Positions 5,846 through 64,000 of a stretch of 64,000 nucleotides of DNA are shown one piece after another. Position 1 is the stretch's first letter; each line of letters starts with the position of its first letter. Both the position numbers and the translations under genes were made by a program. The notes beneath the pieces were generated by a model. It had not been told where the DNA came from, ran no database searches, and saw nothing but the letters and a program-made list of their open reading frames with translations. Source of the stretch: Paramacrobiotus metropolitanus (Eukaryota; Tardigrada; Eutardigrada; Parachela; Macrobiotidae); assembly GCF_019649055.1 (NCBI RefSeq), contig NW_026570314.1:124001-188000 (forward strand), given 5' to 3'.

Positions 5846-5980
5846 ATGATCGTGTCCCACCGCGAACTGGTCGTCGTTTAATTGGGCGCTGGTTAAGGTC
5901 AGGTGCATGCCTTCACTGATCTTCGCGATCCCGATGCGATTTGCTGAATCCGAGGACGGCGCAATCGAATTCTGAGACAT
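5846..5980 (-). pseudogene. BTB-BACK-MATH gene remnant, first exon only
   Basis: The minus strand starts MSQNSIAPSSDSANR at 5980 and continues through the BTB start to QFAVGHDH, nearly identical to the first exon of the pseudogene at 17793. It breaks off at about 5846 where the duplicated flank begins. Exons 2 to 10 are absent. The upstream sequence (5981 onward) also matches the region upstream of 17793, so this is the remains of a head-to-head pair with the intact gene at 6604. Confidence 0.85.
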
Positions 5981-6603
5981 GACAACGGATTCGTGAAGGC
6001 GATGTCACAATCGAATTTTAGGGAAGTCAGACCCAAAAGTCGAACGCAGACAGTGTAACCAAGCAAGAAACCATATGAATCAGTTTACTATTATTTTCAC
6101 CAGCCACAATATGAAAAATCCGGAGGAAATAGCTCGCACCGCTACACAGGTCATAAAAGTGGAAGCTAGCAGCTATCTGGATGCTGGACAAAACACGACG
6201 CACTGGACGAAGCAAACAGCGGACGCGAAGCGGGCGCCACATGCCGAGTGGAACTTAACCGATGCGCTGTTATAGCCGGTGGCCCGGTGTTATACGCATA
6301 CTCGCGTCAACAGGGCGCCGGTCATTCGGTTTCGCAATTTCTAAACCTGCAGTTTCAAACTGCTTTAGGTGTAGGATTAAATTTCTGCTGACTGTACACC
6401 ACTTCAGTATTCCGTTGACTTTCATGTTGTATCGCTTCATACTGTTGATATTAAGGCATTGTCGTTTCCTTCGGATTTTCTAAATCCAATGGTTCCTTAG
6501 CGGTTTATGCGACTTCCAGCTGCATGTTCGATTGCTTGCGTTCTGCCAGGTCCGAATTTCTGAATTTTGACTGTGAATTCACTTTGGCAAATTCTCTTTG
6601 GAC
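5981..6603. promoter_or_regulatory. Shared 5' region of a head-to-head BTB pair
   Basis: This stretch separates the minus-strand first-exon remnant from the plus-strand intact gene. It aligns over most of its length with 17794-18389 between the paralogous pair. It is the likely promoter region of both genes. No TATA box or specific site could be assigned with confidence. Confidence 0.5.
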
Positions 6604-8662
6604 ATGTCTGAGAATTCTGTTACGCCGTCTCGCGGTTCAGGGGGTCGCGCGGGGATCTCAAAGATCAGTGACGGTTTGCAGCGCATGTTAGCTAGCGGCG
6701 AAAGAAGCGATATCCAGTTCACGGTGGGACGGCTGTATGGTGCCGAGAAGATTTTTCCCGCTCACGGGTGAATCGCCGCTGTTATTTCCTTAAGGGCGCC
6801 TCGTTTTTATCCATGATTTCCAAGACTCCCAGAGCAGGTTTCTTATCAATGATACTGATGTCTTGCAGACTCATCATGGGTGTTCGTAGTTCTGTGCTTC
6901 ATGCTGCGTTGGATAAAATGTTCTCTGGAACTGTCGGAGGAAGCTACACAGCTCATATCGACTTGCCTGATGTTCATCCCGAGGCCTTCGCGAACATGCT
7001 CAGGTCGGTTTTTTTGGCACAATGTTTGTTTATCGCTCTTTCCAGATCAACGCTAATGACAACGCTGCAAAATTTGCAGCTACATCTACACTGATGATGT
7101 GAAGAATCTCTCCTTGGATAACGCTTTCCACACTCTACGCTGCGCAGACAAGTATGGCTTGCCGTTACTGGGAGCCATCTGCACCAACTTCATTCTGAAT
7201 CAGATCAGAACCGACAGTTGTCTCGATATGTTGGATACGGTAGGTTTGCTAAGCTTCGTTTTTCCATTCTCCTACAGGAGATATTGGCAGCTTTGTTTTG
7301 CAGGCAGTTCGATACGCCAATGCTGCACCCTGCGTCCTGGAGAAGTGTCTGAGTCTGATTGACAAATCAACAAAAACTGTCTGGGAATCAGATCAGTTCT
7401 GTGAGATTGGAGAAGAGGCGCTCCGCATCATTCTCCAACGGGATACGCTGACCGCCAGCGAAGACACAATTTATTCCGCAGTTGATAAGTAAATGAAGGC
7501 CGCTTTTAGCAAGAAATGCCAACATACCGATAGTTCCATGTTTTATTCGCTGATTTTTGGCAGGTGGGCTGCACAAATGTGCATACGGAGGAACATGGAC
7601 GCTTCCTCCGCCAATCGGCGCAAAATATTGGGCCAGACTTTCTTTCTCCTCCGTTTTCCGCTCTTGACTGATGCTCATCTGATGGATGGACCGGTGAAGG
7701 TACGATTGCATTGCCATCGATCTATGTAGTATAATCTGATTCATAGCAAGTGGTAGATTCACCGATAAGTGGCTTTGTCTTCCGTCCGTGTTCTGAACGT
7801 AGATGGCCGAAAAGTGGACAGCCGGAGAAAAGTCGGACGCGTTTGATGAAATCTTTGGTTTTGTTTAGAATGGTCTGCTGCTGCAGTCGGAAGGATGGGA
7901 CATCTACCGCTTTAAGCACGCTACCGTCAAACCGGAGCTGCCGTTCCCTACGGAACCCCGACAAAGTACCCGCGTAACAACGCTTTAAACTTTTGACGCA
8001 GTCCGTACACAACAGCGATATTGCGCTTCTAGAGGTACGCGTCGAGGGTATCGTTAACTACCCCGTTCCGGACGTCAGAACGCTATCGGCAACGTACGTC
8101 TCCAGTCGCTCCACGAAAATCGGAAAGCTGCTTTGGTGAGCCGGCTATCGCACGGGAAAGCTGCAAAGCCGTTGAACGGAAACAACATTCATATGTGTCA
8201 TATTGCAGGGGAATCGAGGTGAACAACGCGCTGGGCTTCTTCCTTAAGTGTTATGGCTCCGACCCGAAATCCGAACTTTGGAGGTGCAGCGTAACTGCAG
8301 AACTTTGCCTGTTACCGTGGAACGCGGAAACTGCACCCATTAAGAGAAGTATAAATTTGCCGTCGAGTTAGGGTAATTCCATTCACTCTATACATACTTT
8401 GCCTTAATTATGTTGAACTTGTGTAGTGATATCCCATTTGTTTCGCAAGGAAAAGAATAACTTGGGATATAAAGAATATATATCCATGGAGGTAATGTAT
8501 TCGATGCGGTTAAAAAAACCGTTAGCGATTCGTTGACGGTCTTGATGTCGGTTTGTGTTTCAGAATTTACTGGATCCGTCAAACGGGTACGTCGATCCTA
8601 GTGACTTCTCCTTGAAACTGCAAGTCCACCTGACCGCTTACCTTCCGGCTGAACTGGCGTAA
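6604..8662 (+). CDS. BTB-BACK-MATH protein, intact (gene 1, 427 aa)
   Basis: Ten exons: 6604-6767, 6869-7003, 7080-7239, 7304-7488, 7564-7699, 7869-7965, 8033-8135, 8209-8348, 8427-8491, 8564-8662. They sum to 428 codons with all phases consistent. Exons 1-3 encode the BTB fold, starting at SDIQFTVG and including an YIYTD-like strand. Exons 4-6 encode BACK, with LQRDTLTASEDTIYSAVDKWA, LGQTFFLLRFPLLTD and a PFPTEPR end resembling the BTBD1/2/3/6 group. Exons 7-10 encode a MATH/TRAF-like domain ending LLDPSNGYVDPSDFSLKLQ. Such proteins are expected to link CUL3 to substrates bound by MATH. Exon 8 is shorter than in paralogs by six codons. The start matches other family members. Confidence 0.85.
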
Positions 8663-10106: not shown

Positions 10107-12234
10107 TTATCCAGCTGCACCAGGAAGATCTGCGGTCAGGTGAACTTGCAGTTTCAAGGAGAAGTCAGCAGGATTGACGTAGCCTTTCGCCGGATCAAGT
10201 AAGTCCTGAAAGTACGAGCTCCTGTAAACCCATGTTTAACCAAGGATTTCCCGCACAAAACCCTCACCTTCATAGAGGCGAATCTCGAAGTTCCTGCCCA
10301 CGGCTTCTTCTTGTCGAACACAGATTTCTCAAACTCTGCAAAATTACAGTATACCATTGCGATGTTCCTAGCCAACAGTTGCTTCAGGTTACCGTAAGCA
10401 GACATACGTTTATTAATTGCTGTAGTTCCCGTTTTCCAGGGTAGCAGGCGAAATTCTGTTGTAACCTGATACTTCCAAGAATCACATTCTGGATCACCAG
10501 AACACTCTAGGTAAAAGCCCAGAGTAGCGGATCCACTATCCGTCCTCTTGACCACCTCGATGTTCCTGTAAAATCGACGGTTGACTGAGACGTGGACGTT
10601 CTGCAGTTCTGCTTCTCCCATGTGCCGATGTTATTCTTACCACAGCAGCTTCCTGACTGAAATGGGATCACTGCATTTGCTTGCCTCACTGAGTTCCCTC
10701 AAATCCGGAATCGTATAATTAATGACGCCCTGAGAACGCACATCTGAAAATAATAGTTTAAAAAGGCTTAAATAAATTTCCGAAACGAAGTAGCCCTGAC
10801 TTTGTCGTGATTCCGTAGGGAATGGCAGATCTGGTTTGATGACGGCGTGTTTGTACTGGCAGATGTCCCATGCTTCCGATTGCAGCAACAAACCAGTCTG
10901 AATAAAGACAGCATTTCACCCATTACATTTTACTCCTGAAATGCTTACAGTACTTCTTTTACACTTTCTGCAAGGTAAAGCGAAGCGAAGACCTGGTTAT
11001 ATCGCCCCTTTTCAGTGGCATTTAGCCTTACGAAAGGTACAAGTACGTTAAAAAGCTTGTGCGAAGAGCGTACCTGCACGGGTCCATCCAGCAGTTGAGT
11101 GTCAGTCAAAAGCGGGAAGCGAATCAGGTACAACGCCCGGCCCACTATTTCGCGGCGATTGGCGGGGGAAACACCCACGTTTTTCGACTTGCACATGTTT
11201 GCAGTCCACCTGAGAAGAAACGTTTGGAATGATCACAGATACATTTTTAAGGGAGAAGAAAGGTGTTTGCCGAAACTAGGTTGATAAATGGTATAGATAT
11301 AGCCAACAAAGACTTTCGTGGCACTAGAAGAGGACTGCTGGCATGCATTTACTTCTCAACCGCCGAATAAATTTTGTCTTCGTTGGCGGTCAGCATATCC
11401 CGCTGGAGGATGATGCGCAGCGCCTCGTATCCAATTGCACAAAACTGATCCAGCTTCCACACAATTTCCACTGATTCATCAATCAGGCACAAACACTTCT
11501 CCAGGATACTTGGCGCAACACTTGCGTACAGAACCGCCTGCACAAAAAAAAAGCAGTTAAAATCGGTTGTGGGCAGCCTATGGTTAACACTGGAGAAAAC
11601 TCACACTATCCAGCATATCCAGACAGTTCTGGATTTTCAGCTCCTTCAGGGCAAACTCAACGCAGATGGCGACCAGCAATGGTAAGTCATACTTGTCCGC
11701 GCAGCCCAGTGTATGGAAGACGTTATCCTGTGACAAGTTCTTCACGGCATCGGTGTAGATGTAGCTGCAAAGGGTGCCATGTTGTCATTTGCGGTGTTCG
11801 CTGCACGGCTTCTAAGAAAACATGGTGAGCAGTACGGTGCAATAGACACACCTGAGCATATTAGCAAAGGCTTCGGGATGAATGTCCGGGACGTCGATGG
11901 GAGCTGAGCAAGTCTCTGGTACGCTGCCGTAGAACATGGTATCGAACACATCGCTGCGGATGCTCAGGATGAGTCTAGCACATGACAAAACGGACAATTC
12001 AGAAAAAATTTGTCAAGCAGATGGTTTTTACATTCTTGATGAGGGCGATATGCAATTTCAAGGGACTCACCTGTGAGCTAGGAAGGTCTTCACGTCGCCA
12101 TAGTCCCGTCCCACAGCGAACTGGACATCGCTCAGTTCGGTACTGGTTAAGATGAGTTGCATGCCATCACTGATCTTCGCGATCCCGTCCCGATTTCCCG
12201 AATCCGAGGGTGATGCAGTCAAATTAAGCGACAT
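10107..12234 (-). CDS. BTB-BACK-MATH protein, intact (gene 2, 430 aa)
   Basis: Ten exons on the minus strand: 12234-12071, 11974-11852, 11764-11605, 11537-11353, 11209-11074, 10897-10801, 10743-10641, 10565-10408, 10335-10268, 10205-10107. The sum is 431 codons including TAA. BTB starts at LSDVQFAVGRDYG; the BTB middle reads RSDVFDTMFYGSVPE. BACK contains EALRIILQRDMLTANEDKIY and LYLIRFPLLTD. MATH begins GVINYTIPDLREL and ends LLDPAKGYVNPADFSLKLQ. The exon 8 acceptor is at 10565, because an upstream AG would put a stop in frame. It is head-to-head with the pseudogene at 12747 and convergent with gene 1. Likely CUL3 adaptor by family. Confidence 0.85.
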
Positions 12235-12746: not shown

Positions 12747-14771
12747 ATGTCTCAGAATTTGACTGCCCCATCCCCAGATTCAGTGCATCTTAGCTAGCGG
12801 CGAAAGGAGTGATGTCCAGTTCGTGGTCGGAGGGGATTATGGTGCCGTGAAGGTCTTTCCAGCCCACAGGTAAGCCTTTATTGTCGTTCCAGTTTGCCCG
12901 CACCGTCCTTGTTCGTGAGTGATCAAGTCCATGGTCTCTGCTGATGGAATTCTTACTAACTGTCAGTGGTTCCATAACTTCCATGCAGGCTCATCGTGGG
13001 TGTCCGCAGCACAGTGTTCCATACAATGATGAATAAGCTGTTCCATGGAAAGACGCCAGGGAGCTGTACGGTTCGCATCGACATTCCGGACTTTTATCCA
13101 GAGGCCTTCGCTAATCTGCTCAGGTAGGTCTACAGTGCAACATTTGTGCATCGCTTGCAGCGAATAACGCCACAGTAAACTTTGCAGCTACATGTATATC
13201 GACGCTGTCAAGAATCTGTCAAGTCTTCCCGACTCTGCTGTGCGCTGACAAATATGGCCTGCCGTTATTGATTGCCATCTGCACCAACGTTATCCTTGAT
13301 GTGATCAGTATCAACAATTGCCTGCATATGCTGGATGTTGTAAGGTTTCTTCGGATTATTTTGCTACAGATTTTCACAAGCTGTGTTATGCAGGCCATGC
13401 AGTACGCCAGTGTTGCGCCAAGCATCATGGAGAAGTGTTTATGCCTGGTTGACAAATCGTCAAAAACTGTTTGGGAATCAGAGCAGTTCTCCGCGATTGG
13501 TGAAGAAGCGCTACGCATCATTCTGCAACGGGATAGGCTGACCGCCGACGAAGACACGATTTGTTCGTCGGTTGATACCGACGAACCGATACCGAAAGTT
13601 GTATTCGCTGTTTCTGTAATTTTTAAGCCTCTTAACAGCTACCTTCTGGTAGATGGGCTGCCAGCATGTGCACGCGGCGGAACATGGACATTTCCTCTGC
13701 CAATCTTCGTCAAGTATTGGGCAAGATGTTGTTTCTAATTCGATTCCCGCTCATGACAGTTGCGCAACTCATGGATGGGCCCATTAAGGTATGGATATTG
13801 CATCGGTTTACGAACTATCTCCTTGTAAGGGTTATAGCTACTCTCCAGTGTCGGTTAAAATCAGGAATGACGGCTGCGACTTATCAACATGCGTAGGCAA
13901 AACACTCGATTTTCGCAGTGCAAAAGGATGCGATGAATAAATTACTGCGTTTTTATTAGAGCGGTTTATTGCTGCAATCCGAAGGATGGGATATCTACCG
14001 ATACAAGCACGCCACCATCAAGCTGCAGCTGCCGTTCCCGACGGAGCCCCGCCATCGTTAGCGTTACTTAGGGCGTTCATTTATTCGATGAAAACCGCAT
14101 TCACGTCACAAAGACTGTTTGATTTTTCCAGAGGCCCGCGCAGAGGGTGTCGTTAACTACACGGTTGCGGATGCCAGAGAGCTGTCGCTGAAGTATATGT
14201 GCAGTGACTGGACGACCATCGGAAAGCTTTCCTGGTGAGTGAGTTGCCGTAGCACATGCAGCTGATGAAACCATGTGTCTAAAGGTTGACTGCGCCACAT
14301 ATGCGTCGTTCTGCAGGGGCATTTTCGTCAGTAAGGAAACCGATGAAGAGCTTCCCGTATTAGGCTTCTACATGCAGTGTTCTGGCTATCCGAAATCGGT
14401 TTGGACGTGTCAGTTTAATGCGGAGCTGCGCCTGCTGCCGTGGAAAGCGGAAACTGCACCAATTTAAAACGTATGGTCGTTTAATGCGGCTGTTATAATT
14501 TCAGTTACCCCGTGATTTCTTCGCAACGGTAACTCTAAATTTTGTAGAGACATCGCACCTGTTCGACAAGACTATCCATTGCTGGGGATGTCTTACATTT
14601 ATCTCTATGGAGGTGAGAGTTTAGCGCGGTGAAAGGCTTGGCAGGTTTATTAGTCACATAAGGCTGCCTTTCCAGAAATTACTGGATCCGATCAACGGCT
14701 ACGTAAATCCGAAAGACTTCTCCTTCAGACTGCAAATTCACCTGACCATGGTCACCGCTGGAATTATATAG
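12747..14771 (+). pseudogene. BTB-BACK-MATH pseudogene (gene 3)
   Basis: All ten exons are recognisable but damaged. Exon 1 (12747-12869) is 123 bases against 164 in paralogs, the gap falling after PSPDS and producing an immediate TAG. Exon 3 (13188-13339) lost about eight bases after KNLS. Exon 4 (13394 on) has no GT donor because of a small rearrangement around 13570-13600. Exon 6 (13960-14056) has only a weak donor. Exon 8 (14315-14470) has an extra base giving TAA in API. Exons 2 (12989-13123), 5 (13653-13788), 7 (14132-14234), 9 (14548-14612) and 10 (14686-14771) look normal. An AATAAA lies at 15041-15046. It was once a BTB-BACK-MATH gene like genes 1 and 2. Confidence 0.8.
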
Positions 14772-15675: not shown

Positions 15676-17793
15676 CTAATTCGCTCCAGCAGGGACACTA
15701 GCCGTCAACTGAACTTGCAGCTTCAAGGAGAAGTCCTCAGGATTGACGTAGCCTTTCGCCGGATCCAGTAATTCCTGAAAACACAAGCTTTGGAAAGCCA
15801 TATCCAACCAAGGATTCCCCGCACACAATCCTCACCTTCATAGAGGAGAATCTAGAAGTTCCCTAGCCCACGTTCTCCTTGCAGAACAGATATTCGTCCT
15901 CTGCAAAATTACACGATACCTTTGCAATGTTCTTAAGCAACAGATGCTAGAGGATGCCATACTTTTCTTAATTGCTGCAGTTCCCGTTTTCCAGGGCAGC
16001 AGGCGGAATTCTACTGTTACTTTACTTCCAAGAATCAGACTCTGAATCGCCCAAACATCCGAGGTAGAAACCCAGAGTCGGATATCCGTTTTTAGTGCTT
16101 TTGGCCACGCCGATGCGCCTGCAAAACGGCGAGTGTCTGGACGTTCAAAAATTTCTCTCTCTGTTATGCTATGCTTACCACAGCAGCTTCTTCACTGCAA
16201 TGGGATCGCTGTACATGCTCTTCTCAGTGAGCTCCCTCAAATCCGGAATCGTAAAATTAACGAATCCCTCAGCGCGCACATCTGGAAATGACACATGTTA
16301 AAAAATGATTGAAACTCTCTTAACGAAGGAACATGCTGACTTTGACGTGGCTCCGTAGAAAATGGCAGCTCTGGTTTGCTGTCGGCGTATTTGTACTGGC
16401 AGATGTCCCATGCTTCCGATTGCAGCAGTAAACCAGTCTGAGTAAAGCATTTTACCCATTAGATTTCATCAACGAGATACTGTCAGCTTTTACAATTTCC
16501 GCTAACAATGTTCCCATCGGTCCTAACGATCAGCGCAAACCAAAGTCTGTTTTGGTCACCCCTTGTGACCTGAAGACTTACGGAAAATAAATCAGAAAGC
16601 CAGGTGAAGACCGTACCTGTACGGGTCCATCCAGCAGCTGAGTATCATCCAAGAGCGGAACCGAATCAGGTGCAACGCTTGGCCCAAAATCTCGCGTCGA
16701 TTAGCGGAGGAGACGTCCACGTTTCTCACCTTGCACATGTCTGTAGCCCACCTGAGAAACAACGCTTCATATAATTGCGATCGCCGATACATTTCTATGA
16801 TACAAGAAAGGCGCTGCCAAATCGGGTTGATAAAGGTCACAGACACAACGAGCTGAAGTTTTCGTGGAACGAAAAGAGAATTGACGGCTTGCATTTATGT
16901 ACTTCTCAACCGACGAATAAATCGTGTCCTCACTCGCGGTCAGCGTATCCCGTTGGAGAATCATGCGGAGAGCTTCGAGTCCAATCGCACTGAACTGCTC
17001 CAGCTCCCACACTGTTTTAGGTGATTCATCAATTAGGCACAAACATTTCTCCAAGATACTTGGCGCAACACTTGCATAAAGAACCGCCTGCACAAAAAAA
17101 TCAATTAAAATCGGTTGTAAGCAGCCTGTGGTTAACACGGGAGAAAACTCACACTATCCGGCATATCTAGACAGTTCGGGATTTTCAAATCCTTCAGGGC
17201 AAACTCAACGCACATGGCGATCAACAATGGCAAGTCGTACTTGTCCGCGCAGACTAGCGTTTGGAAGACGTTATCCTGGGAAAAGTTCTTCACGGCATCG
17301 GTGTAGATGTAGCTGCAAAGGGTGCTATGTTGTTATTTGCGATCTTCGCTGTACAGTATCTGGCAATACGCACTACGCAGTACGCAGCAATACGCAGAAC
17401 GACAGACACACCTGAGCATGTTAGCGAACGCCTCGGGATGAATGTGGGGATGTCGATCGGGACTGACCAGTTCTGTGGTACGCTTCCGTAGAACATGGTG
17501 TCGAACACATCACTGCGGATACTCAGGATGAGTCTGTATCGACGATTGGATAGTTAGAAAAAATTAGTCAGTCGGAGGAGTTGCTAGAATCAAAGGGACA
17601 CTGAGATTCGAATGGCAGCGGGGACTAACCTGTGCGCTGGAAAGATTTTCATGGTACCATGATCGTGTCCCATCGCGAACTGGACGTCGCTTAGCTGGGC
17701 GCTGGTTAAGATTAGGTACATGCCTTCACTGATATGCGCGATCTCGGTGCGATTTGCTGAATCCGAGGACGGCGCAATCGAATTCTGAGACAT
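15676..17793 (-). pseudogene. BTB-BACK-MATH pseudogene (gene 4)
   Basis: Ten exons are alignable: 17793-17630, 17533-17412, 17312-17153, 17087-16903, 16751-16617, 16437-16341, 16281-16179, 16118-15963, 15900-15836, 15774-15676. Exon 2 is one base short (in the PIDIPD.HPEAF region), exon 5 one base short (in IRFPL), exon 8 two bases short with a resulting TAA after DSWK, and exon 9 carries an in-frame TAG where paralogs have Trp-Ala/Gly. Splice sites are all kept. The lesions suggest loss of function by small indels rather than by rearrangement. It is head-to-head with gene 5. Confidence 0.8.
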
Positions 17794-18389: not shown

Positions 18390-20475
18390 ATGTCTCTGAA
18401 TTCCATTACACAGTCTCGCGATTCGGGGAGTCGTGCCGGGATCGCGAAGATCAGTGACGGTTTGCAGCGCATCCTAGCTAGCGGCGAAAGGAGCGATGTC
18501 CAGTTCACGGTGGGACGGCTTCATTGTGCAGAAAAGATTTTTCTCGCTCACAGGTGAATTCTCGCTGTTATGTCACTTTCTGGACTTGCCCTTCTTATCC
18601 GTGATTTCCAAGCTGGTTTCTTGGCGAGTATACTGATGTCTTGCAGACTCATCGTGGGTGTTCGTAGCGTTGTGCTCCAGGCAATGTTTGATAAGGTGTT
18701 CTATGGAACTATCCCGGGAAGCTACACAGCTCATATCGACGTGCCTGATGTGCATCCCGAGGCCTTCGCTAATATGCTCAGGTCTGTTTGTTTAGCACAA
18801 TGTTTGATTATCGTTCTTTCCAGATTGACGCTAATGACAACGCAGCAAAATTTACAGCTACATCTACACCGATGCTGTGAAGAATCTCTCCCGGGAAAAC
18901 GCTTTCCACACTCTGCGCTGCGCGAACAAGTATGGCTTGCCATTACTGGGAGCAATCTGCACCAACTTTATTCTGAATCAGATCAGTATCGACAGCTGTC
19001 TCGATCTGCTGGATATGGTAGGTTGGCTCGGCTTCGTTTCATTCCGCTACGGCAGATATGCGCAGTTTTACTTATGCAGGCAGTTCGAATCGGCGAAGGT
19101 GCACCAAGCGTCCTGGAGAAGTGCCTGCCTGATTGACAAATCTGCAAAAACGGTCTGGGAATCCGATCGGTTCTGTGAGATTGGAGAAGAGGCGCTACGC
19201 ATCATTCTCGAACGGGATACGCTGACCGCCAGCGAAGACACGATTTATTCCGCGGTAGACAAGTAATTAAAGACCTCTTTTAGCAAGAAACCCCAGAATG
19301 CTGATAATTCCAAGTTTTATCAGCTGATTTTTGGCAGGTGGGCTACGCAAAGGTGCACACGGAAACACATGGACGCTTCCTCCACCAATCGGCGCCAAAT
19401 ATTGGGCCAAACCTTTTTTCTCATCCGATTCACGCTCTTGACTGACGTCCAGCTGATGAACGGACCCGTAAAGGTAAGAGTGCCTTGACATCGATTTATA
19501 ATCCTTGTTTTACAAAACTGGGATTCGCATGACAAGAAGCGCCCTAGTCAGTCCTTGAATTCCGTCATTATTTTGGAGGCCGCTGAGACTAACAATGGTC
19601 AGACGGAGAGAGTTGCACGCGTTCGCTGAATTGATTTTGTCTGTTTAGAACGGTTTGTTGCTGCCATCGGAAGGATGGGACATCTACCGCTTTAAGCACG
19701 CAGCTATCAAACCGGAGCTGCCGTTCCCTACGGAATCCCGACAAAGTACCCGCGTAACAATGCTTTACGTTTTATCCCATTATCCGTCGACAGGAACGAT
19801 GGTGTTGAACTTGCGTGGCGTTTCTAGAGCTACGCGCTGAAGGCATCGTGGACTATACCGTTGTGGATGTACGGAAGCTATGGAAACCTGTGTCCAGCGT
19901 CCCCGTTCGCGTTGGAAAGCTGCTTTGGTAAGTCGGTGCCGGTTGTCGTACACGAATCTAATAATGTTGTAAAACGGCATACAAATGTATCATTGTGTAG
20001 GAGTATTGTGGTGCATAAGGGAACGGATGAGGAGCTTCCTGTGCTGGGCTTCTACCTGTCGTGTTCTGACTATCCGAAATCCGACCGTTGGGCGTGTCGT
20101 GTTACCGCAGAACTTCGCCTGTTGCCGTGGTACGCGGAAGTTGCACCTATTAAGAGCAGTATGGGTTACCATAGGTTTACGATAATCTCCGGAAACTTGT
20201 GCTGTTATTTTCTCTTATGTACAAGTATGCTTTAAATTCCGTAGCGACAACCCATCTCTTTTGCAAGGAAGAAGACAGTTGGGGATATTCGGATTTTATA
20301 TTTATGGAGGTGAAGTATTTTGTGCGTTTGAAAGTCTAAAATGTGTCGGTACAGCCTTGATGTCGGTTTGTTTCAGGATTTACTGGATCCGGCAAACGGC
20401 TACGTCGATCCAAGGGACTTCTCCGTGAAACTGCAAGTTCACCTGACCGCTTATCTTCCGGCTGAACTGGCATGA
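18390..20475 (+). pseudogene. BTB-BACK-MATH gene with one frameshift (gene 5)
   Basis: Exons 18390-18553, 18647-18781, 18858-19017, 19080-19262, 19338-19473, 19649-19745, 19828-19927, 20001-20158, 20245-20309, 20377-20475. All splice sites and the start are good. The single lesion found is a two-base deletion in exon 4 (near 19130), where paralogs read KCLSLIDKS. Retaining the 62-base intron before exon 4 would restore the downstream frame with no stop. MATH motifs are intact, including LFCKEEDSWGYSDFIFME. An AATAAA occurs at 20724-20729. It is very close to gene 1 and part of the same duplication. Confidence 0.75.
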
Positions 20476-22604: not shown

Positions 22605-22806
22605 TCAGTTCTGTATTTGCAGTCTTAAGGAAAAGTCACTGGGACTGATATATCCCTTTGCCGAATCCAGTAGTTCCTGAAAAATACAGTTATGTGAGTG
22701 AGTGCTGGGCACCCAAGTGTTTTCCTGTACAAAACCCTTACCTTCATGGAAATAAATTTAGTATGTCCCCAAATAACATTCTCTGGGTTAAAGAAAACGC
22801 ATATCT
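22605..22806 (-). pseudogene. BTB-BACK-MATH remnant: last two MATH exons
   Basis: Exon 9-like 22806-22742 reads WGHTKFISMK before a GTAAGG donor. Exon 10-like 22676-22605 reads ELLDSAKGYISPSDFSLRLQ and ends TGA. Lengths and splice positions fit the family (65 bases for exon 9). The upstream exons are not recognisable as family members, so this is a fragment or a very divergent gene. Confidence 0.7.
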
Positions 22807-28435: not shown

Positions 28436-28491
28436 CCGTTCCACGGCGTCTGCGTGCGACGACCGTGCCACGGTCTTTAACTATAACACAC

Positions 28492-41984: not shown

Positions 41985-42350
41985 TCTGACTCTGACTCTG
42001 ATTCTGACCACTCAAACTCTGACTCTGACTACTCAAACTCTGACTCTGACCGCTCAAAGTCTGACTCTGACTCTGAAGGTTTCTTAGGTTTCTTAGATTT
42101 CTTAGGTTTCTTAAGTTTCTTAGGTTTCTTAGGTTTCTTAGGTTTCCTAGGTTTCTTAGCTTTCTTAGGCTTCTTAGGCTTCTTAGGTTTCTTAGTTGTC
42201 TTAGGTTTCTTAAGTTTCTTAGGTTTCTTAGGTTTCTTAAATTATTCTTAGGTTATTCAGTCAGAGTCAGAGTTTGGACAATCAGAGTCAGACTTTGAGT
42301 AGTCAGAGTCAGAGTTTGAGCGGTCAGAGTCTGAGTCAGAGCTTGAGCGC
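41985..42350. repeat. Large inverted repeat around a 9-base tandem array
   Basis: The left arm (41985-42076) is built of CTCAAACTCTGACTCTGACT-like units. The right arm (about 42253-42350) is its reverse complement, built of GTCAGAGTCAGAGTTTGAG units. Between them lie roughly 18 imperfect copies of TTAGGTTTC (about 42077-42245). The whole could fold into a long hairpin with the 9-base array in the loop. Low complexity; the frames through it are not credible genes. Confidence 0.9.
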
Positions 42351-46376: not shown

Positions 46377-48877
46377 ATGCTTATATACCCTCACGAGACA
46401 CGTCAGGTCTTTGCGTGGAACGCTGTCGACGTTCTCATCGACGGCGGCCAGCTGCAGCACGGCGAAGTGATCAACGTGGTGCAGGGCGGTCTAATCGTCG
46501 ATTTCCAGTGTGTCGAACAGCGCGCACAGTTCGTCGAATACGGGAACGTTTTCCACAGCGACAAGAGCTCCACGCACGACGGAGAGGACGCCGAGGTTTT
46601 GCTGCGGCGTCATCCCGACGGCGCATGGATCTGGTATCCGGGGAAGCTCCTCGAACATCCGCTGCGAGACTGGTATCAAGATGCTTTGTTCGTGGAAGTA
46701 CAACGGCCGCATGGCATCCCCATCCGTGATCTGGTCCCCTGGGAGCAAGTACGCGCACCATCCTCGATCGCCGCTCTGGAAAAGCGGCGCGTGGGGGAGG
46801 AGCATTTCGTCATACGTTGTTATGCGTTGTCCGAGGAATATTTGGCTAGCGGCACCCCGCGGTGGAGGGAGATCTTTCTGTACCGACTGCAACGTCTGTG
46901 CGAGGTGGTCTGCACGTCCGTTTCCAGCCAGAGGCTCCTATATCTGCAGCGTCAAAAGCACCAGCCCTTGGACGTTCAACATGTGGTAAGTTACAGTAGC
47001 TGCCATTCAACTTGTGATCTGTTTTTCGGTTTTCAATGTTACTCTCTTAATTTCAGATTTCATGTAGTTATAGTGAACAATTATTTATACAAATATTCTT
47101 ATTCTTGCATAAAGAGTTGACAGCCTGGTTAATGTTAATAGCAGCCAGAAGGCGCCCGTTTTACCCTCACTATAGGGCCTAGGCACCCTTTTGGGTTTAT
47201 ACAAATTTAGACTGAATAATTTGTATATCCGCTTGCATTCGAAGTTCCTTTGCATATTTGTAAGCAAAAAATTGCTACTGTATGTTGCCGGTAATATTTG
47301 AACGCTTTTTTATGCAGAAAAACGCTTACTATGAGGCGAGAAACTTGGAGAAGGAAGGCAGCTTACTTGGGACATCGCAATGGATTATGCGGATTGCCAC
47401 GGATAGCGCATGCAGTGAGAAACCACGGACCGGTGGCCGAGACAATGATGATGAAGTCGGACTGTCGCTGCCGCCTGAGCTACTGGCGGAAGTCTTCCAG
47501 TCGCTGGACTCCATCGAGCGCATCCGCTGTCGGCGTGTCTGTTCACTGTGGAGCATTCTCCTCATCTCGCCAGCCTACTTTCATGTTGTTCGCGTCTCAG
47601 GCGACGTCGAGCATTACGGAAAGAAGCTGCATTTCGTTATGGAGAACATAGACCGCGTTTACTGGATCGTGGCGTGCTTCTTGAAATGCTTGAACAGCAC
47701 CACGCAGAGACTTGTGCTGACCGATCTGGACGCTATACAATGCACCGAGGTGGCTAAAATGATCAAAGAAATGCCCGAAACCACGCCGGTCCCGGCGTTA
47801 ATTTTTTTCAACTGCAGTTTCGGTTAGAAGAAATTTCTGGTCCAGGACGTTATTAACGGGGTGGCGGGTATTCTGGCGCGATTGTCGAAATGCGGCGGTG
47901 TGGTGTGGAGAGAGTGCAGCCTTAACGATCACAACCTGCGAGTAGCGATAGCACACCATGCCTTCAACGACCTCACGGTGGAGCCGAAGATGAAGTTGCT
48001 GTTGTGGAACCTTTTCGAAAGCAATCTAGTCCTCACTAAGCCGATTAATCGCCCGGCACTAGCGAAAGCGATTGCCGAATGCATCGCGCAGCATCGTTTC
48101 GATCAGCCGGGTCTCAATGAACTCGAACACCAAATTGTGAAGGTGAGGCGTTAAAGTTTTGCACTTTAGAACATCATTTTGTTTTCGGTACCCCATAGCA
48201 GTTGACTCTGGCCTAATTTTTTGTCAATACCCAAAGCCGAAGTCCACACGATGAGCCAAAGTTTTGCAGTCTTCACTCAGAAAACCTGTTAGTTCGCCAC
48301 ATGGTTTGCCATGTGCGTTGACCGTTAGGAAGGCAGTGTCTAGAAATACGATGGCAGCCTCAGAAAACTGTGAAACCTAAAATTCCTCTGAATTCTAAGG
48401 AACATGATAAACTGACAAAACTTGTGCTCGACCTCGTAACGTGTCGGCATCGTGTTCGTTCAGCTTGGTAACAGTCATCGAAATAGCGGGTCACCACCCA
48501 GCTCCAACGGAGAACCGCTTGGTTGCGGCTCAAGCGATATTACGTGGCGGGAACAAATTAAGTAATGATTTAAACTGAACAGTTTTTATACTATATTCTT
48601 GATATCTATGCCGATGGTGTTCACTGACTCTGGGTGCTTGCAGGGCCTGCATCGATACCAGAGTGTGGATCCGCGTTCGTCTACTCACTACCGCAAGCGG
48701 AATTGGACGGCATCCACGGTCTCCCAACTGGACGTCAACAAGCTGACCACGCTGACAACGGCGGCCTTGAGTGAAGGCGTTGATATAATTCCGGACTGGA
48801 GACTGCGGGCATATGGCGGCTGCTGTCCGTATTCGACTCAGTTTGATATTGACCATTTATCCTTTGCGTACAATTAA
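46377..48877 (+). pseudogene. F-box protein family A copy 2, single nonsense codon
   Basis: Exons 46377-46985, 47318-48142, 48644-48877, 556 codons in register. The start is set by alignment with copies 1 and 3, although the frame is open upstream to 45999. The N-terminal module and F-box (LPPELLAEVFQSLDSIERIR, then VCSLWSILL) are intact. At codon 373 (47825-47827) TAG replaces the Tyr of FNCSFGYKKF seen in copies 1 and 3. After it the frame is open to the end and well conserved, so the loss is a single substitution. Read-through, a truncated F-box protein or a recent null allele are all possible. Confidence 0.8.
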
Positions 48878-51033: not shown

Positions 51034-54000
51034 ATGGCCAGTGAAAGCCCAGCACCCCATTCACCTAAAACGCGTTTCAACCGATGGATTCATAAGCCTT
51101 GGAAATCCCTGACGCTCCTACGGCAACACAGCAAGGAAATTCTCCGTGTAGAAACCTCCGTATCCGCTCAGGGAACAATCGCCGACGACAGCAACTGCCG
51201 TCAAATTCTGGGTACAAACCTGCAGCCAGTTGTTTGCGAATTTGCTATGGGACAATTTTCTCTGGGCTTTTTATGCGACGTGGACTGGCCGGGACGGCGT
51301 GTCTTAGTGGATTTTGCCCGTTACAACCGCCCGCCAAAATGGCTGCCTGCCGGGAACGTCCGCTGGCACAAGCCAGTAATAACTAGTGATATTCGCCCCG
51401 GGCAGCCGGTTGTAGTTGCCTTGCGACTGAACTCCGACCAACCTTACGTATTCCAACCGGCGCAAATTATTGTTCCCGCGGCCAGGGACAGTAATGGCAA
51501 TTTCGGTCCAATATGCGTGGAGGTGACGTGCCCGGACAACGCTGGCTGCATTCGGAAATTCGTGCATCCAGTCCAGGTGCGCGTTGCGGCCGAGTATCCG
51601 GAACATTACCATGATTGTGACAAACCTCTTACTGTTGTCGGATACTGCCGTCTGCTGCACAAGCAAACCGCGCCCCTCAATTGCTGTCCGGATGCGACAA
51701 ATATTGATTTGCGGCACTTGTTGGGAACTTTTAACGAAATTTCCAGCTGGCTGACAGTTGTGCGGATATGGGTGGACACCAAAGGCATCCACTGTGTCTA
51801 CACAACATGCCGGCCGAGCTATTTCGATCACACGTCTCTGGAATATCTGATCCGCAAGTCCAAGTCGCTACCGGCCATTCAGCTCGAACCACTTCCGGAT
51901 TCCGATAATATCGGCGCTAATGGAGACCGCTCGGTGCCTTTGGGAATGCTGCCTTATGATTTACACGAGCTGACCTTGTTGGAAATCCAAGATATTCATA
52001 GCGTCGTTAGCGCTCAAAAGTAAGCAGCTTAAAAAATAGCTGTATGCCCCAGCCGTTGTATCAAGTTGTTACAACGACTGGTCTTACAAAAAAGTACGGG
52101 CAGCACATATAATATGCTGTTGATAGTAATGTCAAGGGCACGGGCTGTACGACGTGCCCTGACGTGGTGGGACGACACAACTGAAGCTGGACCTTTATTG
52201 GCTACTCTCTGCTCTAGCATATAATGCGCTAGCATTATATAGGGAGGAAACAAACAAACAAACTACGGGTAGCCGAAGGCTGGATTGCACAACTGATGAT
52301 CATTAGCAGCGCTAATGATCAAAAGCACTTAGCAGCTCGAAACAATGAAGGATGACACATAGAACAAGAGCATCGCCATATATAGAAGCATCTAAGCAAG
52401 CTATGGCACGAGGAGTACTCGTGACAGTAACACCAAATGCCGCCCGTATTTTTTTTAGCGATACTCACCTCTACAACGCCGAAGGTCGAAAATCTACAAA
52501 AATTAGAAAAAGACAGCGTTGACCACGACAGATTGTTTGCTAGTACAGTGGTTTGTGTATCCAGAAAACTTACTGGACACCTGTCCACTGAACTAGTGTC
52601 TAGTCTGATAGTAAAAAACGATGCTGCTGGAGCATCGAAACTCAAGTTGCGTATTTACTGCTTTGAGCAAGCAGCTAGGTGCAAACAGAAGCGAACTGCA
52701 AAGAATTAACTAGATGCTTTGAGAAAGAAAATATTAGCTAGATGCAAAAGCCCTGAAGGAAAAGAATTAACCAGGTACGAAAAGCTAGCATACCAATTCA
52801 ACAATGACTGCGATTGCGCAAATTAAGAAAACACCGCTCAATTTATTAGAATATATTTACGTAAAAGCATGTAAAAGCACCATGGCTTATCCAGCTTCCG
52901 TAAAATTTCCACCCTACGACAAATTGTCACTCCTATGACAAGCTGGTCAGAACAAGTACTAGGTACTGGTCCTGGTACTGGTCAGAACAGGTAGTAGCCA
53001 AAATCAGGTACTGGTAATAGGTACTGGTCAGAACAGGTAGTAGCCAAAATCTGTTCAAACCGATGGGGCAATACTGTATTTTTTCCACTTTAATATTAGT
53101 ATGGTTTCATAAGGGTCGTCATAATAACTTCCCTGGGTTTCTTGCAGAGTTTGTAAGGCCTGGTACGACATCTTAATCCGTCGCCGCAGCAGCCAGCACG
53201 TAGCTATCGACCTGACCAGTCTACTGCCTTATGGTCCAAACAGCCAGGAGCGGAGATGCAACCGCTCTCATCTGCTTAACGTTCTGGACAAGGTCGTGAC
53301 GACGGCCACCGTCTCGCTGACGCTGATGAACGGCCATCTGACCCCGGAACTGGATCTCTATCTCTTTCAGTTCCTATCGGTTAAGGTCCCGCGTCTATCG
53401 AGGATCTTTTTGAAAAATATTCGTTGCTTTGGCGCCGTGACACAGAACTACGAGAAGCAACGGCTGGAATGGGCGAATCTCAGTTACTTGATGGAGGCTT
53501 GCCAAGTGATGCATTTGCGTGACGTCCGGATTCCAAAAATCTTCGGACCGATCGCCGGGTTGTGGTGCGCGCCGGCTGGATTCCGGGAGGATGTCGATGT
53601 TTTCGTGAAGAAAGCTGCGCTGCATTGCACACTTAGTGAAACCGATCGCTTGAATCGTTTCCTGCAAGTTTTGAACGCCGGCTGTCCTGAACTGTCCACG
53701 AGGGAAGTAACCGACATTAACGCAGCCTGCCATAAGATACTGATTCGTAACGAGCATCCACTACACAGCCGGTTGCTGCTCATGCTTACCTTGTAAGTAT
53801 TTTCGTGCTCGTTCTGATGAAATGTGAAAAATGATGAACATATAAAACGAAAGTAGAAAATTGCAGTGTACTGTAAGCGTAAAAAGCGTACGCGTCTGCG
53901 GGTCAGTACACGGTGCATAATAATCATGGTATATAAATCAAATTAAACTGTAAACATTTTGGCCAGCTAGTCTATTTGACTGGCGGTCTGCCGGAGCGGA

Positions 54001-57307: not shown

Positions 57308-59698
57308 ATGTTTGCGTACGCCAACGAGACACGTTATGCCCAACGGTGGAACGCTGTGGACGTCCTCGTCGACGGCGGCGAGCTGGTGCACGGCGAAGTG
57401 ATCAACATGGTGCAGGGCGGTCTGATCATCGATTTCCAGTGTGCAGAGCACCGCGCACAGTTCGTCGAATACGGTAGCATTTTCCACTGCGACAAGAATT
57501 TCAAGCGCGACGGAGAGGACGCCGAAATCCTGTTGCGGCGCCATCCCGACGGCGCGTGGATATGGTATCCGGGACGGTTCTTGGAATATCCGCTGCGACA
57601 CAGCTATCGTGATGCTGAATTCGTGGAGGTACAGCGACCGCAGGGCATCACCATCCGCGAGCTGGTTCCCTTGGAGCAGGTACGTGCACCGTCCTCGAAG
57701 GCCGATCTGGAGGAGCGGCGCGTGGGGGATCAGCACTTCGTCGTCCGCTGTTATCCGTGGTCCGCTGAAGATTTTGCTGACGGGGACCTGCGGTGGCGGG
57801 AAACCTTTCTGTACGTGATGCAGCGTGAATGCCACGTGATATGCACGTCCGTTTGCAGCCAGAGGCTCATCAGATTCTATCTGGAGCTTCAGAAGGATCA
57901 ACCCTTGGACGCTCAACGAGTGGTGAGTTGGTTAGCATTCAGCTTCGGGACCAGTTTCCCCGTGTTCAGTTTCTTTCTCTTATTGTACTTTTATCGTTTA
58001 AAACAAGAAACCCTGACCTTATTTCTTTATCGAGAGTACACAATACACAAAATTTCATTATAACGACACGTCACGTTTTCGCTAAGTATGTGATTGCTTA
58101 AATTGTTTATCAGTCAAAATGTAACAAATGCGTGCGAAATAGTGAAGAAACTTGATGTAGCTGGTAAGCGAAAAAATAATACTGTTGTGCATGTAGAAAG
58201 GAGTCTACTATGAGACGAAAAAATTGGAGAGGGAAGACAGCTTACTTGGGACATGGCAATGGATCGTGCGGCATGTCACGGTTGGCGCCTTCAACGCGAA
58301 AACACAGACCCCTGACCGCGATGGTGTAGTCGGACTGTCGTTGCCCCCGGAGTTGCTTGTGGAGATCTTCCAGTCGCTGGACTCCATCGAGCGCATCCGC
58401 TGCCGGCGTGTTTGTTCACTGTGGAACATTCTGCTCAGCACGCCAGCTTACTTTCGCGATGTGCGCGTCTCAGGGAACGTTACGCATTATGGGAAGAAGC
58501 TGCATTTCTATATGGAGCACATAAATCGCATTTACTGGATCGTGGCATGCTTCGTGAAATTCGTGAACAGCAGCACGCAGAGAATTGTTCTGGCCGACCT
58601 GGACGCTATCCAGTGCACCGAGGTGACTGGACTGATAAAAAAATTGGCCAAGACCACTCCCATACCGCCACTGATTTTCTACGGGTGCAGTTTCGGTTAT
58701 GCAAAGTTTCTGATCCAGGACATCATCACCGGCGTGGCGCGTATTCTGGCGCGGTTGTCGAAATGCGGCGGTGTGGTGTGGAGAAAGTGCAGCCTGCACG
58801 ATCATAACGTGCGATCCGCTATAGCACACCATGCCTTTGGCGACCTCGCGTCGAAGCCGCAGCTGAGGTTGTTGTTGTGGGAACTTTTCGAAAATAATCT
58901 GGTCCTTACGAAGCCGATTGATCGGGCAGCCTTAGCGGAATGGATTGCCGAATGCATCGCGCAGCAGCGCACCAAGGAGCTCGAAGACCAAATTGTGAAG
59001 GTGAGACGTTGTGCAGTTGTAGTTTAGGACTTGATTTGCAGTCTTCATGGGCTGTCACAGCGTTTGATACCGGCCTAAATTTTTTGAAAAAACCCAAAGC
59101 CTACGCTCACACTGCCAACAGGCGTATTGCTGTTGATGGTTTTGTGGTGGGGTAAGACTAAAGGTTCAATAATATTATATCTTGGTTATAACTCACGGTC
59201 TGCGGCATTAACTGATGGCATTTATTAACCTTTTATATTCAAACCACGAGAGTTGACCTTCGCGATCATACTAGACAGACTGACCGTTTTCGGTCCTTCC
59301 ATCTTTATCGTAGACTTCCAAACGGCAACTGACTTTACAACTTTCAAGGCAGTTCACAATAACCACTCCACTAGTGACAGTTCAGAAGTTGTCGTTGTTA
59401 TAGTCATGTTGCTTATGTCTATGCCCATGGTGCGGAATACGCATTGACTGCTGGATGCTTACAGGGCCTGCATCGTTACCAGAGCGTAGATCTGCGTTCA
59501 GCTGCGCACTACCGCAATCGGAACTGGACAGCATCCACAGTCTCCCAACTGGACGTTAACCTGCTGACCACGCTGACGGTTGCGGCCCTGAGCGAAGGCG
59601 TTGATCCGATTCCGGACTGGAGACTGCGGGCAGTTGGTGGCGGTTGCCCGTATTCGACTCAATTTGATATCGACCATTTAGGTTTTTGTTATCATTAA
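57308..59698 (+). CDS. F-box protein with N-terminal module, family A copy 3 (550 aa)
   Basis: Three exons: 57308-57922, 58197-59000, 59465-59698, total 551 codons, all open. The N-terminal module reads GELVHGEVINMVQGGLIIDF, then RRHPDGAWIWYPGRF. The F-box is LPPELLVEIFQSLDSIERIR plus CRRVCSLWNILL. The tail carries KCGGVVWRKCSLHDHNVR and the shared last exon ending STQFDIDHLGFCYH. It is closest in layout to copy 2, and with family B copy 2 it forms the second A-B unit. Likely SKP1-binding substrate adaptor; the substrate is unknown. Confidence 0.85.
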
Positions 59699-61332: not shown

Positions 61333-61495
61333 CATTACGTATCACGCGTTCCAGGAAGCTCTGCAGAGGAAACTGCAGTTGTGCTGGAAGTTTATTTTCC
61401 CTGGCATATGCCTGTCTGTTTTAAAAGGCGCTTCCCAATCGGATAGTTATCGGTGTTCCGTAATCCGTAAGACTTCTTTTATTATAACTTTAAAA

Positions 61496-64000
61496 ATGGC
61501 CAGTCAAGGCCCATCACCGCATTCACCCAAAGCGCGTTTCAACCGTTGGATTAATAAGCCTTGGAAATCCCTCTCACTTCTCCCGCGACAGCGCAGCAAG
61601 GAGACTCTCCGAGCAGATATCTCCGCTACTGCTCTAGGAACCATCGCCGACGACAGCAACTGCCGCCAAATCTTGGGGAGAAACCTGCAGCCAGCTGTTT
61701 ACGAATTCGCTACGGGACAGTTCTCTCTGGGCTTTATATGCGACGTGGACTGGCCGCGACGGCGCGTCTTCGTAGATTTCGCCTGTCACAACCGCCCACC
61801 TCAGTGGCTGCCTGCCGGGAGCGTCCGCTGGCACAAGCCAGTAATAACATGCGAAATCCTTCCCGGGGAGCCGGTCGTAGTTGCGCTGCGACCGAGCTCC
61901 GACCAACCGTACGTATTCCAACCGGCGCAAATTATTTTTCCCGCGGCTAGGGATAACAACGGCAATTTCGGTCCAATATGTGTGGAAACAACTTGCCCGG
62001 ACAGCGTTTATCCTATTCGGAAATTCGTTCATGCAGTCCAGGTGCGCGTTGTGGCGGATTATCCAGAACAATGCCATGAATCCGACGAGCCGCTTTCCGT
62101 TGTAGAGTATTGCCGTCTGCTGCAGAAGCAAACTGCGCCTCTCGAGTGGTGCCCGGATGCGGCAAATATTGATTTGCGGTACTTGTTGCGGGCTTATAAC
62201 GAAATTTCCTGGATAAAAGTTGTGCGGATATGGCTGGACACCAAAGGCATCCACTGTGTCTACACAACAAGCAAGCCGGGCTTTTTTGATGAGCCGCCCC
62301 TTGAATATCTGGTCCTCAGGTCCAAGTGGCTTCATGCTGTTCAGCTCGGATCACTTCTGGATTCCAACAATACTGGCGCTAACAGAGACCGCTCTGTGTC
62401 TCTGGGAATGCTGCCTTTTGACTTGCACAAGCTGACCCTGTTGGAAATCCTAGATATTCACAGCATCGTCAGCGCTCAAAAGTAAGCTTAAAAGTTAAGT
62501 CTGAGCACGACAGACTGTTTGCTTTCAGGAAGATGTTCATCGATTATATGGAAACGATGCTGCTAGAGCATCGAAACTCAAATTGATTATTTAGTGCTTC
62601 GAAGAAGCAACTTTTAACAAGATGCATGTGCATTGGACACGGATTAGCCAGGTTGGAAACGGTTAGAATACCAACACAACCTTGAGTTATTGCGGTTGCT
62701 TAGACTAAGAAAGCACGGGGTCAAAATCTCGATTTGTATTATTTAGACATTTCGGTCGGCTTGTGCCTTTTACGTAGAACATGGTTTATCCAACTTCCGA
62801 CAAATTGTGGGCCATAATCCCCACTACAGTGCACGCCTTTGACAAACTGGTCAGTACAGCCTGTACAGGTAGCCCCAACCTGTTCATCCGAGTTTAGGCA
62901 ATATTTATTTATGCTTTAATATTAGATGTTTTATAAAGACCACCAATAATTTAGTCCGTTTCATAACTTTTCTGTACTTGTTGCAGAGTTTGTAAGGCCT
63001 GGTACGACATTTTAACCGGTCGCCGTGACAACCAGCACGTAGCTGTCGACCTGACCAACCCACTACCCGATGACCCATTTAACCAGGAGCGGAAATACAG
63101 TCGCTTTCATCTACTGAACGTTCTCGACAAGGTTGTGACGAAGGCCACCGTCTCGCTGACGCTTATGAACGGCAGTCTGACCCCGGAACTGGATATCTAT
63201 CTCTGTCAGTTTCTGTCCATCAAGGTCCCGCGGTTGGCGAGGATCTTTTTGAAAAATATTCGTTGCTTCGGCGCCGTTACACAGAACAACGAGAAGCAAC
63301 GCGTGGAATGGACGACTCTGAGTTACTTGATGCAAGCTTGCCAAGTGATGCATTTGCGTAACGTCACGATTCCAAAAATCTTCGCACCGATCGCCGGGTT
63401 GTGGTGTGCGCCGGCTGGCTTCCGCGAGGACGTCGGTGTCGTCGTGAAAAAAGCCACGCTGCACTGCACGCAAAGGGAAACCGATCGCTTGGGTCGTTTT
63501 TTGCAGGTTTTGAACACCGGCTGTCCTGAATTGTCCACGAGGGAAATAACCGACATTAACGAAGCCTGCCATAAGATAATCATTCACCCCGAGCATCCGT
63601 TACACAGCCGGCTGTTGCTCATGCTTACCTTGTAAGTATTTTTTGATCCCTGTTTTGGTCAAGTGCATATGAAAAATCATGAATAAGAAAAACGAAAAAT
63701 AGAAAATTGTAGTGTAGGACAATGTTTATTTTCTGCCACATTTTATCGCTTAACGCACAATTAAGTAAGCGCTTGCATAACAATTAATCGTACGGGCCTG
63801 CGGGTCCATTACAAAGGCTGCTTAACTGCTTTACCGAAATAAACCATAAACATTTTTGTCAGTTAGTCTCGTGGACTAGCGGTCCGACGGAACGGGAGCT
63901 AGATCCTAAATTGTAGATATGAGGTGCTTTTGTATCATTGTAAGTTTTACACTACAGATATTTGAGCGAGCTGCTTATCTTCAGGCTGAATGAACCGGTA
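61496..64000 (+). CDS. F-box protein family B copy 2, cut by window end
   Basis: Exons 61496-62481, 62987-63631 and the start of exon 3 at 63984. Exons 1 and 2 have exactly the same lengths as in copy 1 (986 and 645 bases) and are open throughout. The N-terminal module reads GQFSLGFICDVDWPRRRVFV. The F-box is LPFDLHKLTLLEILDIHSIV, then VCKAWYDILTGRR. The visible beginning of exon 3 (LNEPV) matches copy 1. The first intron is 505 bases, lacking the insert seen in copy 1. About 62 codons should lie beyond the window. Confidence 0.82.

Follow-up and report, generated by a model that had tools for sequence, protein, structure and literature searches.

In this study, a 64,000-nucleotide stretch of the genome of the tardigrade Paramacrobiotus metropolitanus (contig NW_026570314.1, positions 124,001 to 188,000; C94:124001-188000 in our contig numbering; hereafter the window, with positions counted from its first base) was found to carry a cluster of genes with the domain order BTB-BACK-MATH. 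We consider it probable (about 0.7) that these BTB genes are members of an expanded family of chimeric genes encoding ubiquitin-ligase adaptors, presumably of the CUL3 type, which captured the target reader of the deubiquitinase USP7 and in which the groove of that reader is diversifying.

Genes with the domain order BTB-BACK-MATH

Tblastn searches, splice models and Pfam confirmed the original prediction for the window, namely eight BTB-BACK-MATH genes or pseudogenes, two further fragments, one BTB-kelch gene and five F-box-type genes. The BTB-BACK-MATH members are listed below; residues are given for some of them at the phi-x-E motif, which in BTB domains is the contact to CUL3 (available part of PMC10564622).

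5846-5980, minus strand: BM1f, exon-1 fragment of a BTB-BACK-MATH gene (tblastn 7.5e-9), head-to-head with BM2
6604-8650, plus strand: BM2, BTB-BACK-MATH gene of 10 exons, intact; 4-residue insertion in exon 2; V-G-G at the phi-x-E site
10107-12234, minus strand: BM3, BTB-BACK-MATH gene of 10 exons, intact; V-P-E at the phi-x-E site
12769-14744, plus strand: BM4, BTB-BACK-MATH gene with two frameshifts; 5' portion of exon 1 not found
15679-17793, minus strand: BM5, BTB-BACK-MATH gene with three frameshifts
18390-20463, plus strand: BM6, BTB-BACK-MATH gene with one frameshift, in exon 4
22611-22676, minus strand: exon-10 fragment of a BTB-BACK-MATH gene (tblastn 8.8e-8; end taken from the gene model)
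28488-30237, minus strand: BM7, BTB-BACK-MATH gene with frameshifts; exons 9-10 unrecognisable
30694-32749, plus strand: BM8, BTB-BACK-MATH gene with one frameshift, in exon 2
34251-36441, plus strand: BM9, BTB-BACK-MATH gene of 10 exons, intact; start and stop codons read; V-Q-E at the phi-x-E site

Read base by base, BM3 and BM9 are 10-exon genes with GT-AG introns (57-176 bases in BM3), and their exon lengths of about 161/123/160/185/136/97/103/158/65/84-90 form a pattern that recurs across the genome. The spliced products of BM3 and BM9 matched the Pfam models BTB (3.8e-20 and 2.6e-19), BACK (7e-9 and 1.8e-9) and MATH_2 (8e-9 and 1.5e-7), all above cut-off; in BM3 the domains occupy residues 30-136, 143-251 and 299-417, respectively. 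Nothing else appeared in Pfam at E<=10 in either protein, neither a USP7 catalytic or UBL domain nor a PHR domain, and the stop codon directly follows the last MATH exon.

In MATH-BTB proteins the MATH domain comes first and the BTB domain lies C-terminal to it (PMC1257465, as far as available). The genes described here share with SPOP, MEL-26 and the nematode and plant MATH-BTB proteins the presence of BTB and MATH in one protein, but the order is reversed and the MATH domain is of the USP7 type instead of the SPOP type. When the MATH domain of BM3 was searched against the PDB as a single sequence, all 11 distinct matches at E<=10 were USP7 (best 4.8e-13), and a profile of nine copies matched USP7 at 1.4e-23 and SPOP at 2.1e-4. 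The genes are therefore not of the MATH-BTB type assumed beforehand, as they differ in both domain order and the apparent USP7 origin of the MATH domain. The nearest solved BTB domain is that of BTBD6 (2.8e-17), followed by SPOP (6.9e-13) and KLHL3. The N-terminal BTB followed by BACK resembles BTBD6 and the other BTB-BACK-PHR proteins (BTBD1/2/3/6); their C-terminal PHR domain, however, is replaced here by the USP7-type MATH domain or, as described below, by another domain.

Origin of the MATH domain

The genome's own USP7 gene was found on contig C62 with PF12436, and its TRAF (MATH) domain is encoded by four exons. The introns inside this domain have phases 2, 1 and 0, the same as those after exons 7, 8 and 9 of BM3, and by reading they lie at matching residues: in a split Trp codon, in the codon after K/R, and before D-L-L/M-D-P. 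The intron upstream of the domain is of phase 1 in both genes and placed within one codon. Because the three internal introns match in position and phase, the four USP7 exons appear to have been joined to a BTBD6-like BTB-BACK gene. The 19 MATH domains compared have a mean identity of 47% (42-58) to the own USP7 and 28% (24-35) to human USP7, and the TRAF domains of the two USP7 proteins are 47% identical. Most simply read, the MATH domain came from USP7, through exon shuffling and not through a processed copy. Domain order, USP7-type sequence, matching introns and the greater closeness to the own than to the human USP7 all suggest a transfer from USP7 to the BTB-BACK gene. A literature search, with most subscription journals outside it, returned no paper on BTB-BACK-MATH proteins or on exon shuffling of MATH/USP7.

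Gene models and copy number

The genome searched comprised 169.8 Mb in 533 contigs. Its USP7 gene and a fatty-acid-binding protein of ordinary type, first met as a lipocalin-family match and closest among solved structures to animal proteins, agree with an animal genome. Genes in the window were found by tblastn with exon peptides and with a splice-aware aligner of our own, whose gap costs were first linear and then affine; the affine models replaced the first ones in the window and genome-wide. In the linear-gap model BM2 appeared as a broken gene, a result that was rejected, as BM2 is intact with affine gap scoring; lesions that linear gap costs had produced in BM2 and other copies were artefacts. 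Four analyses rest on the first (linear-gap) models: the 51-copy tree, the tree of BTB-BACK parts with a kelch outgroup, the pairwise rates on contig C54, and the phi-x-E table.

A genome search with the Pfam MATH model (PF00917) gave no matches, probably because the domain is divided among exons, and proteins of single exons were then used as queries. Searched with the BACK exon of BM9 (62 residues), the genome gave 353 candidates, of which at least 150 are scored matches; the F-box exon of family A, described below, also has at least 150. The high copy number expected genome-wide was thus found in both classes. Eight of the best 48 BACK-exon matches lay in the window, the other 40 were fetched, and a MATH domain was recognisable in 36 of these 40 (tblastn E<=1e-3). 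Together with the eight window genes and three more distant MATH copies, the 40 make up the 51 modelled genes.

These three came from 12 more distant matches (identity 41-56%); within the fetched stretch, no MATH domain was found in the other nine. In six of the nine an exon was read in which the same linker continues into another domain, termed X here. Its carriers include L097, L099, L100, L103, L104 and L106, and lie on contigs C73, C133, C76, C75 and others. Used as a query, X, which shows the pattern W-x-P-A, V-V-R-A-x-D-I-L, had at least 150 scored matches in the genome; Pfam and PDB profile searches matched it to nothing convincing. The best match from such searches of X and of the N-terminal domain of the F-box families was DUF4537, at 2.7e-4 in 2 of 19 members; compared as profiles, these two domains matched each other too weakly to show homology (E 0.021). 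The BTB-BACK parts of MATH-type and X-type genes split with a FastTree support of 0.99, in a tree where L001, L015, L037 and L040 carry the MATH label without a recognisable MATH domain. Given this split, the sampled genes can be explained by a single change of C-terminal domain; the kelch outgroup was too distant to root the order of MATH and X on the BTB-BACK part.

Selection on the MATH domain

Site-wise rates were estimated with a FUBAR-like script on 20 paralogues, consisting of 18 of the 20 intact genes (L026 and L035 were excluded for odd exon models) and the lesion-free partial copies L007 and L009. The ratio of nonsynonymous to synonymous rates (dN/dS) was 0.30 for BTB, 0.32 for BACK, 0.34 for the linker and 0.54 for MATH. 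A posterior probability of positive selection of at least 0.8 was reached by 8 of 135 MATH sites and by none of the 261 sites in BTB, BACK and linker (p=1.6e-4); six MATH sites passed 0.9, and one further site at 0.8 was among the 27 N-terminal sites. Across the whole alignment, 6 sites were observed at 0.9 and 9 at 0.8, compared with 0-1 and 1-4, respectively, in eight null simulations without positively selected sites.

The selected sites include those aligned to M100, Q120 and N163 of USP7. Groove positions were taken from the available part of a preprint (PMC13142314), and 12 of 13 could be scored. Their mean nonsynonymous rate (beta) was 2.12 against 1.00 at 120 other positions (p=0.006), and for seven side-chain contacts chosen after the alignment had been seen (M100, M102, R104, E162, D164, S168 and N169) the mean reached 3.21 (p=4.4e-7). 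Among the intact copies compared, the side-chain positions that touch the peptide vary greatly, and the groove scaffold includes Cys at C121 in 20/20 copies, Gly at G166 in 19/19, Trp at W165 in 14/19 and mostly F/Y at position 118. The D164 position is Asp in only 2 of 19 copies; in USP7 this residue contacts the serine of the peptide motif. The own USP7 keeps M100, M102, R104, F118, C121, E162, D164, W165, G166 and N169, and differs at Y106, R109 and S168. The family thus resembles USP7 in MATH sequence, intron positions and phases, and scaffold residues; unlike USP7, it has the domain C-terminal to BTB-BACK, highly variable peptide-contact side chains and gene models that include no catalytic part. 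For the six pairs of four genes in a young cluster on contig C54, dN/dS was 0.43-0.75 in MATH and 0.11-0.33 in BTB.

Turnover and head-to-head pairs

BM2, BM3 and BM9 are intact, and five of the eight window copies (BM4, BM5, BM6, BM7 and BM8) carry frameshifts or stops or have lost their last exons in the affine models, in line with the expectation that several would be broken. As a control for assembly errors, 9,585 nucleotides of F-box and kelch sequence from the window (17 exons) showed one in-frame stop, a lenient control, as these exons had been chosen as open frames or ungapped matches. Genome-wide, 24 of the 51 models have neither frameshift nor stop, and 20 of these are near full length; the other 31 models contain lesions or lack parts, in some cases simply because they reach the end of the fetched stretch. 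This is consistent with the birth-and-death turnover that had been proposed for the region.

Eight of the members stand back to back (BM1f/BM2, BM3/BM4, BM5/BM6 and BM7/BM8), with first exons about 455-625 bases apart, exon 1 of BM4 being incomplete. BM2, BM4, BM6 and BM8 have four extra codons in exon 2 relative to BM3 or BM9, and in the 51-copy tree the four plus-strand pair members fall in one clade (support 0.954). The same tree joins BM3 and BM5 to a further copy from contig C94 (1.0) and BM7 to BM9 (0.81). The closest window pairs have synonymous divergences (dS) of 0.44 (BM2-BM6) and 0.49 (BM3-BM5). On the simplest reading, the duplicated unit in the window looks like a head-to-head gene pair, and the two genes of a pair might share a promoter.

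The CUL3-contact motif

The V-P-E stretch of BM3 is presumably the phi-x-E site, as judged from our own alignment with KEAP1-like and SPOP sequences. BM9 also carries the motif, BM8 reads V-K-D, and BM2, BM4, BM5, BM6 and BM7 lack it. Outside the window, 36 of 40 copies were readable at this site: phi-x-E occurs in 18 of them and phi-x-D in 12, one reads E-P-E, and the remaining five lack an acid.

F-box families and their position relative to BTB genes

The five F-box-type genes of the window belong to two families, A and B.

42808-45037, plus strand: family A gene 1; N-terminal domain exon 42808-43422, F-box exon 43994-44752, third exon 44786-45037
46377-48874, plus strand: family A gene 2; N-terminal domain exon 46377-46994; in-frame TAG at 47825
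51034-53793, plus strand: family B gene 1; exons 51034 to about 52019 and from 53148
57308-59695, plus strand: family A gene 3; N-terminal domain exon 57308-57931; no in-frame stop in the exons read
61496-63632, plus strand: family B gene 2; exons 61496-62481 and from 62987

The one of the three family-A window genes that was scanned matched F-box-like at 1.1e-8 (35.2 bits against a cut-off of 24.3). Spliced family-B genes stayed below the cut-offs, one with F-box at 0.0061 (16.9 bits against 20.5) and the other with F-box-like at 0.09 (13 against 24.3). For family A, at least 150 of the 981 candidates found with the F-box exon and at least 150 of the 1001 found with the N-terminal exon are scored matches; family B is smaller, with 49 second-exon matches at E<=0.001. 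As had been supposed, the two families are related: their N-terminal parts match in a profile-profile comparison (E 4.1e-8). This N-terminal domain had no convincing match among Pfam or PDB profiles. The conserved domain common to A and B carries W-N-A-V-D-V and G-G-L-I-I-D-F in family A. AlphaFold models of two F-box exons from the window had mean predicted local distance difference test scores (pLDDT) of 39 and 36.

Site-wise selection had been anticipated both in MATH and in the C-terminal half of the F-box proteins. The first part stood, MATH being non-uniform as described; the C-terminal halves of both F-box families showed no positive selection. Among 42 sequences of the F-box and C-terminal exon of family A (L066 was excluded from the family-A set), no site reached a posterior probability of 0.9 and one reached 0.8; the N-terminal exon of family A had none at 0.9 (null simulations 0-4). 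For the first exon of family B, 4 sites reached 0.9, where null simulations gave 0-3, and 14 reached 0.8, where they gave 1-8, which is not convincing; the second exon of family B (without L094) had no positively selected sites.

The original prediction also saw in the window a regional reservoir of both adaptor classes, a claim that fits family B but not clearly the larger family A. Co-clustering was assessed with the best-scoring matches: 300 BTB matches (150 of the BACK exon and 150 of X), the best 150 of 153 for family A and 32 of 49 for family B. The family-B matches left out were second pieces of two genes, one match of 7.2e-9 inside a counted cluster on contig C52, and 14 weaker ones. 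The 20 kb around BTB matches cover 2.8% of the genome. Within this distance lie 16 of the 32 family-B matches, or 5 of 9 clusters (P=1.8e-6), and 5 of the 150 family-A matches, or 4 of 49 clusters (P=0.046), the latter little above chance. These P values are optimistic, as the null assumes uniform placement and clusters may descend from one block. The F-box genes are separate expanded families, and only family B is clearly linked to BTB genes genome-wide.

Proposed mechanism and alternative explanations

From the domain make-up, a sequence of events can be proposed. Four exons of the USP7 TRAF/MATH domain would have been placed behind the BTB-BACK part of a BTBD6-like gene through exon shuffling, and the chimera would then have multiplied, with copies still arising and breaking, in the window apparently as head-to-head pairs. 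By analogy with known BTB proteins, the BTB part would dimerize and bind CUL3, and BACK would act as a spacer. As in USP7, the MATH groove would hold a short target peptide, and the target would then be ubiquitylated. Each paralogue might read its own short motif; a reader taken from a ubiquitin-removing enzyme would in this way serve to mark proteins for ubiquitylation. The USP7 TRAF domain binds the P/AxxS motif of, for example, p53 and MDM2 (available part of PMC4624675). Everything beyond the domain make-up, including CUL3 binding and a role in recognition or defence, we infer by analogy.

Nematode and plant F-box and MATH-BTB families, described by Thomas in 2006, reportedly show lineage-specific expansion and selection in the substrate-binding domain. 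The genes found here resemble them in both respects, but the selected domain would be a captured deubiquitinase reader, and the F-box families have a common N-terminal domain and show no convincing positive selection. Some lineages have large MATH-BTB families in which the substrate-binding domain contains selected sites (PMC1257465 and PMC5392922). In Caenorhabditis elegans, virus and microsporidia induce F-box and MATH adaptor genes; the C. briggsae orthologues of these genes were not induced by a related virus, according to the available part of PMC5392922. It may be speculated that the deubiquitinase reader became a repertoire of ligase readers in an arms race with products of parasites, viruses or selfish elements, and that the first chimera competed with USP7 and flipped its targets from protection to ubiquitylation; we regard this extension as doubtful.

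Several points weigh against the interpretation as diversifying ligase adaptors. The mean MATH ratio of 0.54 is below 1, so most MATH sites are constrained or relaxed; the FUBAR-like test was self-written, and dS is close to 1 for many of its 20 paralogues; when BM2 and both partial copies were removed (17 genes), the contrast fell to 8 of 135 MATH sites against 2 of 261 (p=0.004). In the three C54 pairs with a fifth gene, L005, dN/dS in MATH (0.30-0.32) was no higher than in BTB (0.32-0.44). Groove numbering came from sequence alignment to USP7 and not from a structural model, and the seven contacts were selected after the fact. Four of the 40 fetched copies, the same four named above, have no recognisable MATH domain. 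In the plus-strand members BM2, BM4 and BM6, glycine replaces the acidic CUL3-contact residue, and the four extra residues of exon 2 adjoin this position; such acid-less copies may not bind CUL3.

One alternative is genomic drift, in which copies are gained and lost at random and MATH varies through relaxed constraint with no wider recognition. The many broken copies (5 of 8 in the window and 31 of 51 models broken or incomplete, some merely at the end of the stretch) agree with it, as do ratios below 1 in all domains. However, the variation is concentrated at positions that face the peptide in USP7, with C121, G166 and most W165 conserved, and the test flagged more sites than in the null simulations; we consider drift unlikely, although with a real chance of being correct. 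Alternatively, the BTB proteins may no longer work with CUL3 and act as decoys, which pair with true adaptors, for example, or shield USP7 targets. BM2, otherwise intact, and BM4 and BM6 lack the acid at the phi-x-E site, but phi-x-E or phi-x-D is retained in 30 of the 36 copies that could be read outside the window and the BTB domain is constrained (0.30), making this improbable. It is quite improbable that CUL3-type and SCF-type adaptors are kept together in the window as a functional reservoir: family-B clusters do lie near BTB genes on five contigs, yet these may be copies of one ancestral block and hence not independent, and family A, with three of the five window F-box genes, is not clearly near BTB genes. 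An origin of the domain order by rearrangement of an ordinary SPOP-like MATH-BTB gene is very improbable, close to negligible; the SPOP BTB is among the closest solved BTB domains, but the MATH profile fits USP7 far better than SPOP and the intron positions match the own USP7.

If the chimeric-adaptor interpretation is correct, the family would be a natural case in which the outcome of recognition was changed by moving one domain, as designed degraders attempt. Being natural variants of the MATH groove on a single fold, its members could show how groove residues relate to the peptide motif. A fast-evolving adaptor family resembling nematode MATH-BTB genes at first sight can have another origin.

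Other features of the window

24682-26897, plus strand: BTB-kelch gene (Pfam kelch repeats 5.1e-27)

The BTB and BACK exons of this gene were read by eye, and no in-frame stop was seen in the exons read. Between the BTB and F-box clusters, exons at about 37186-39283 on the minus strand resemble those of an N-acetylglucosaminyltransferase IV (MGAT4) gene. By reading, broken open frames at 3-3305 on the minus strand resemble gag, protease and reverse transcriptase of a Ty3/gypsy-type retrotransposon. A low-complexity tandem repeat at 41860-42295 has frames that read as runs of RNLRNLR, KKPKKPK or FLGFLG.

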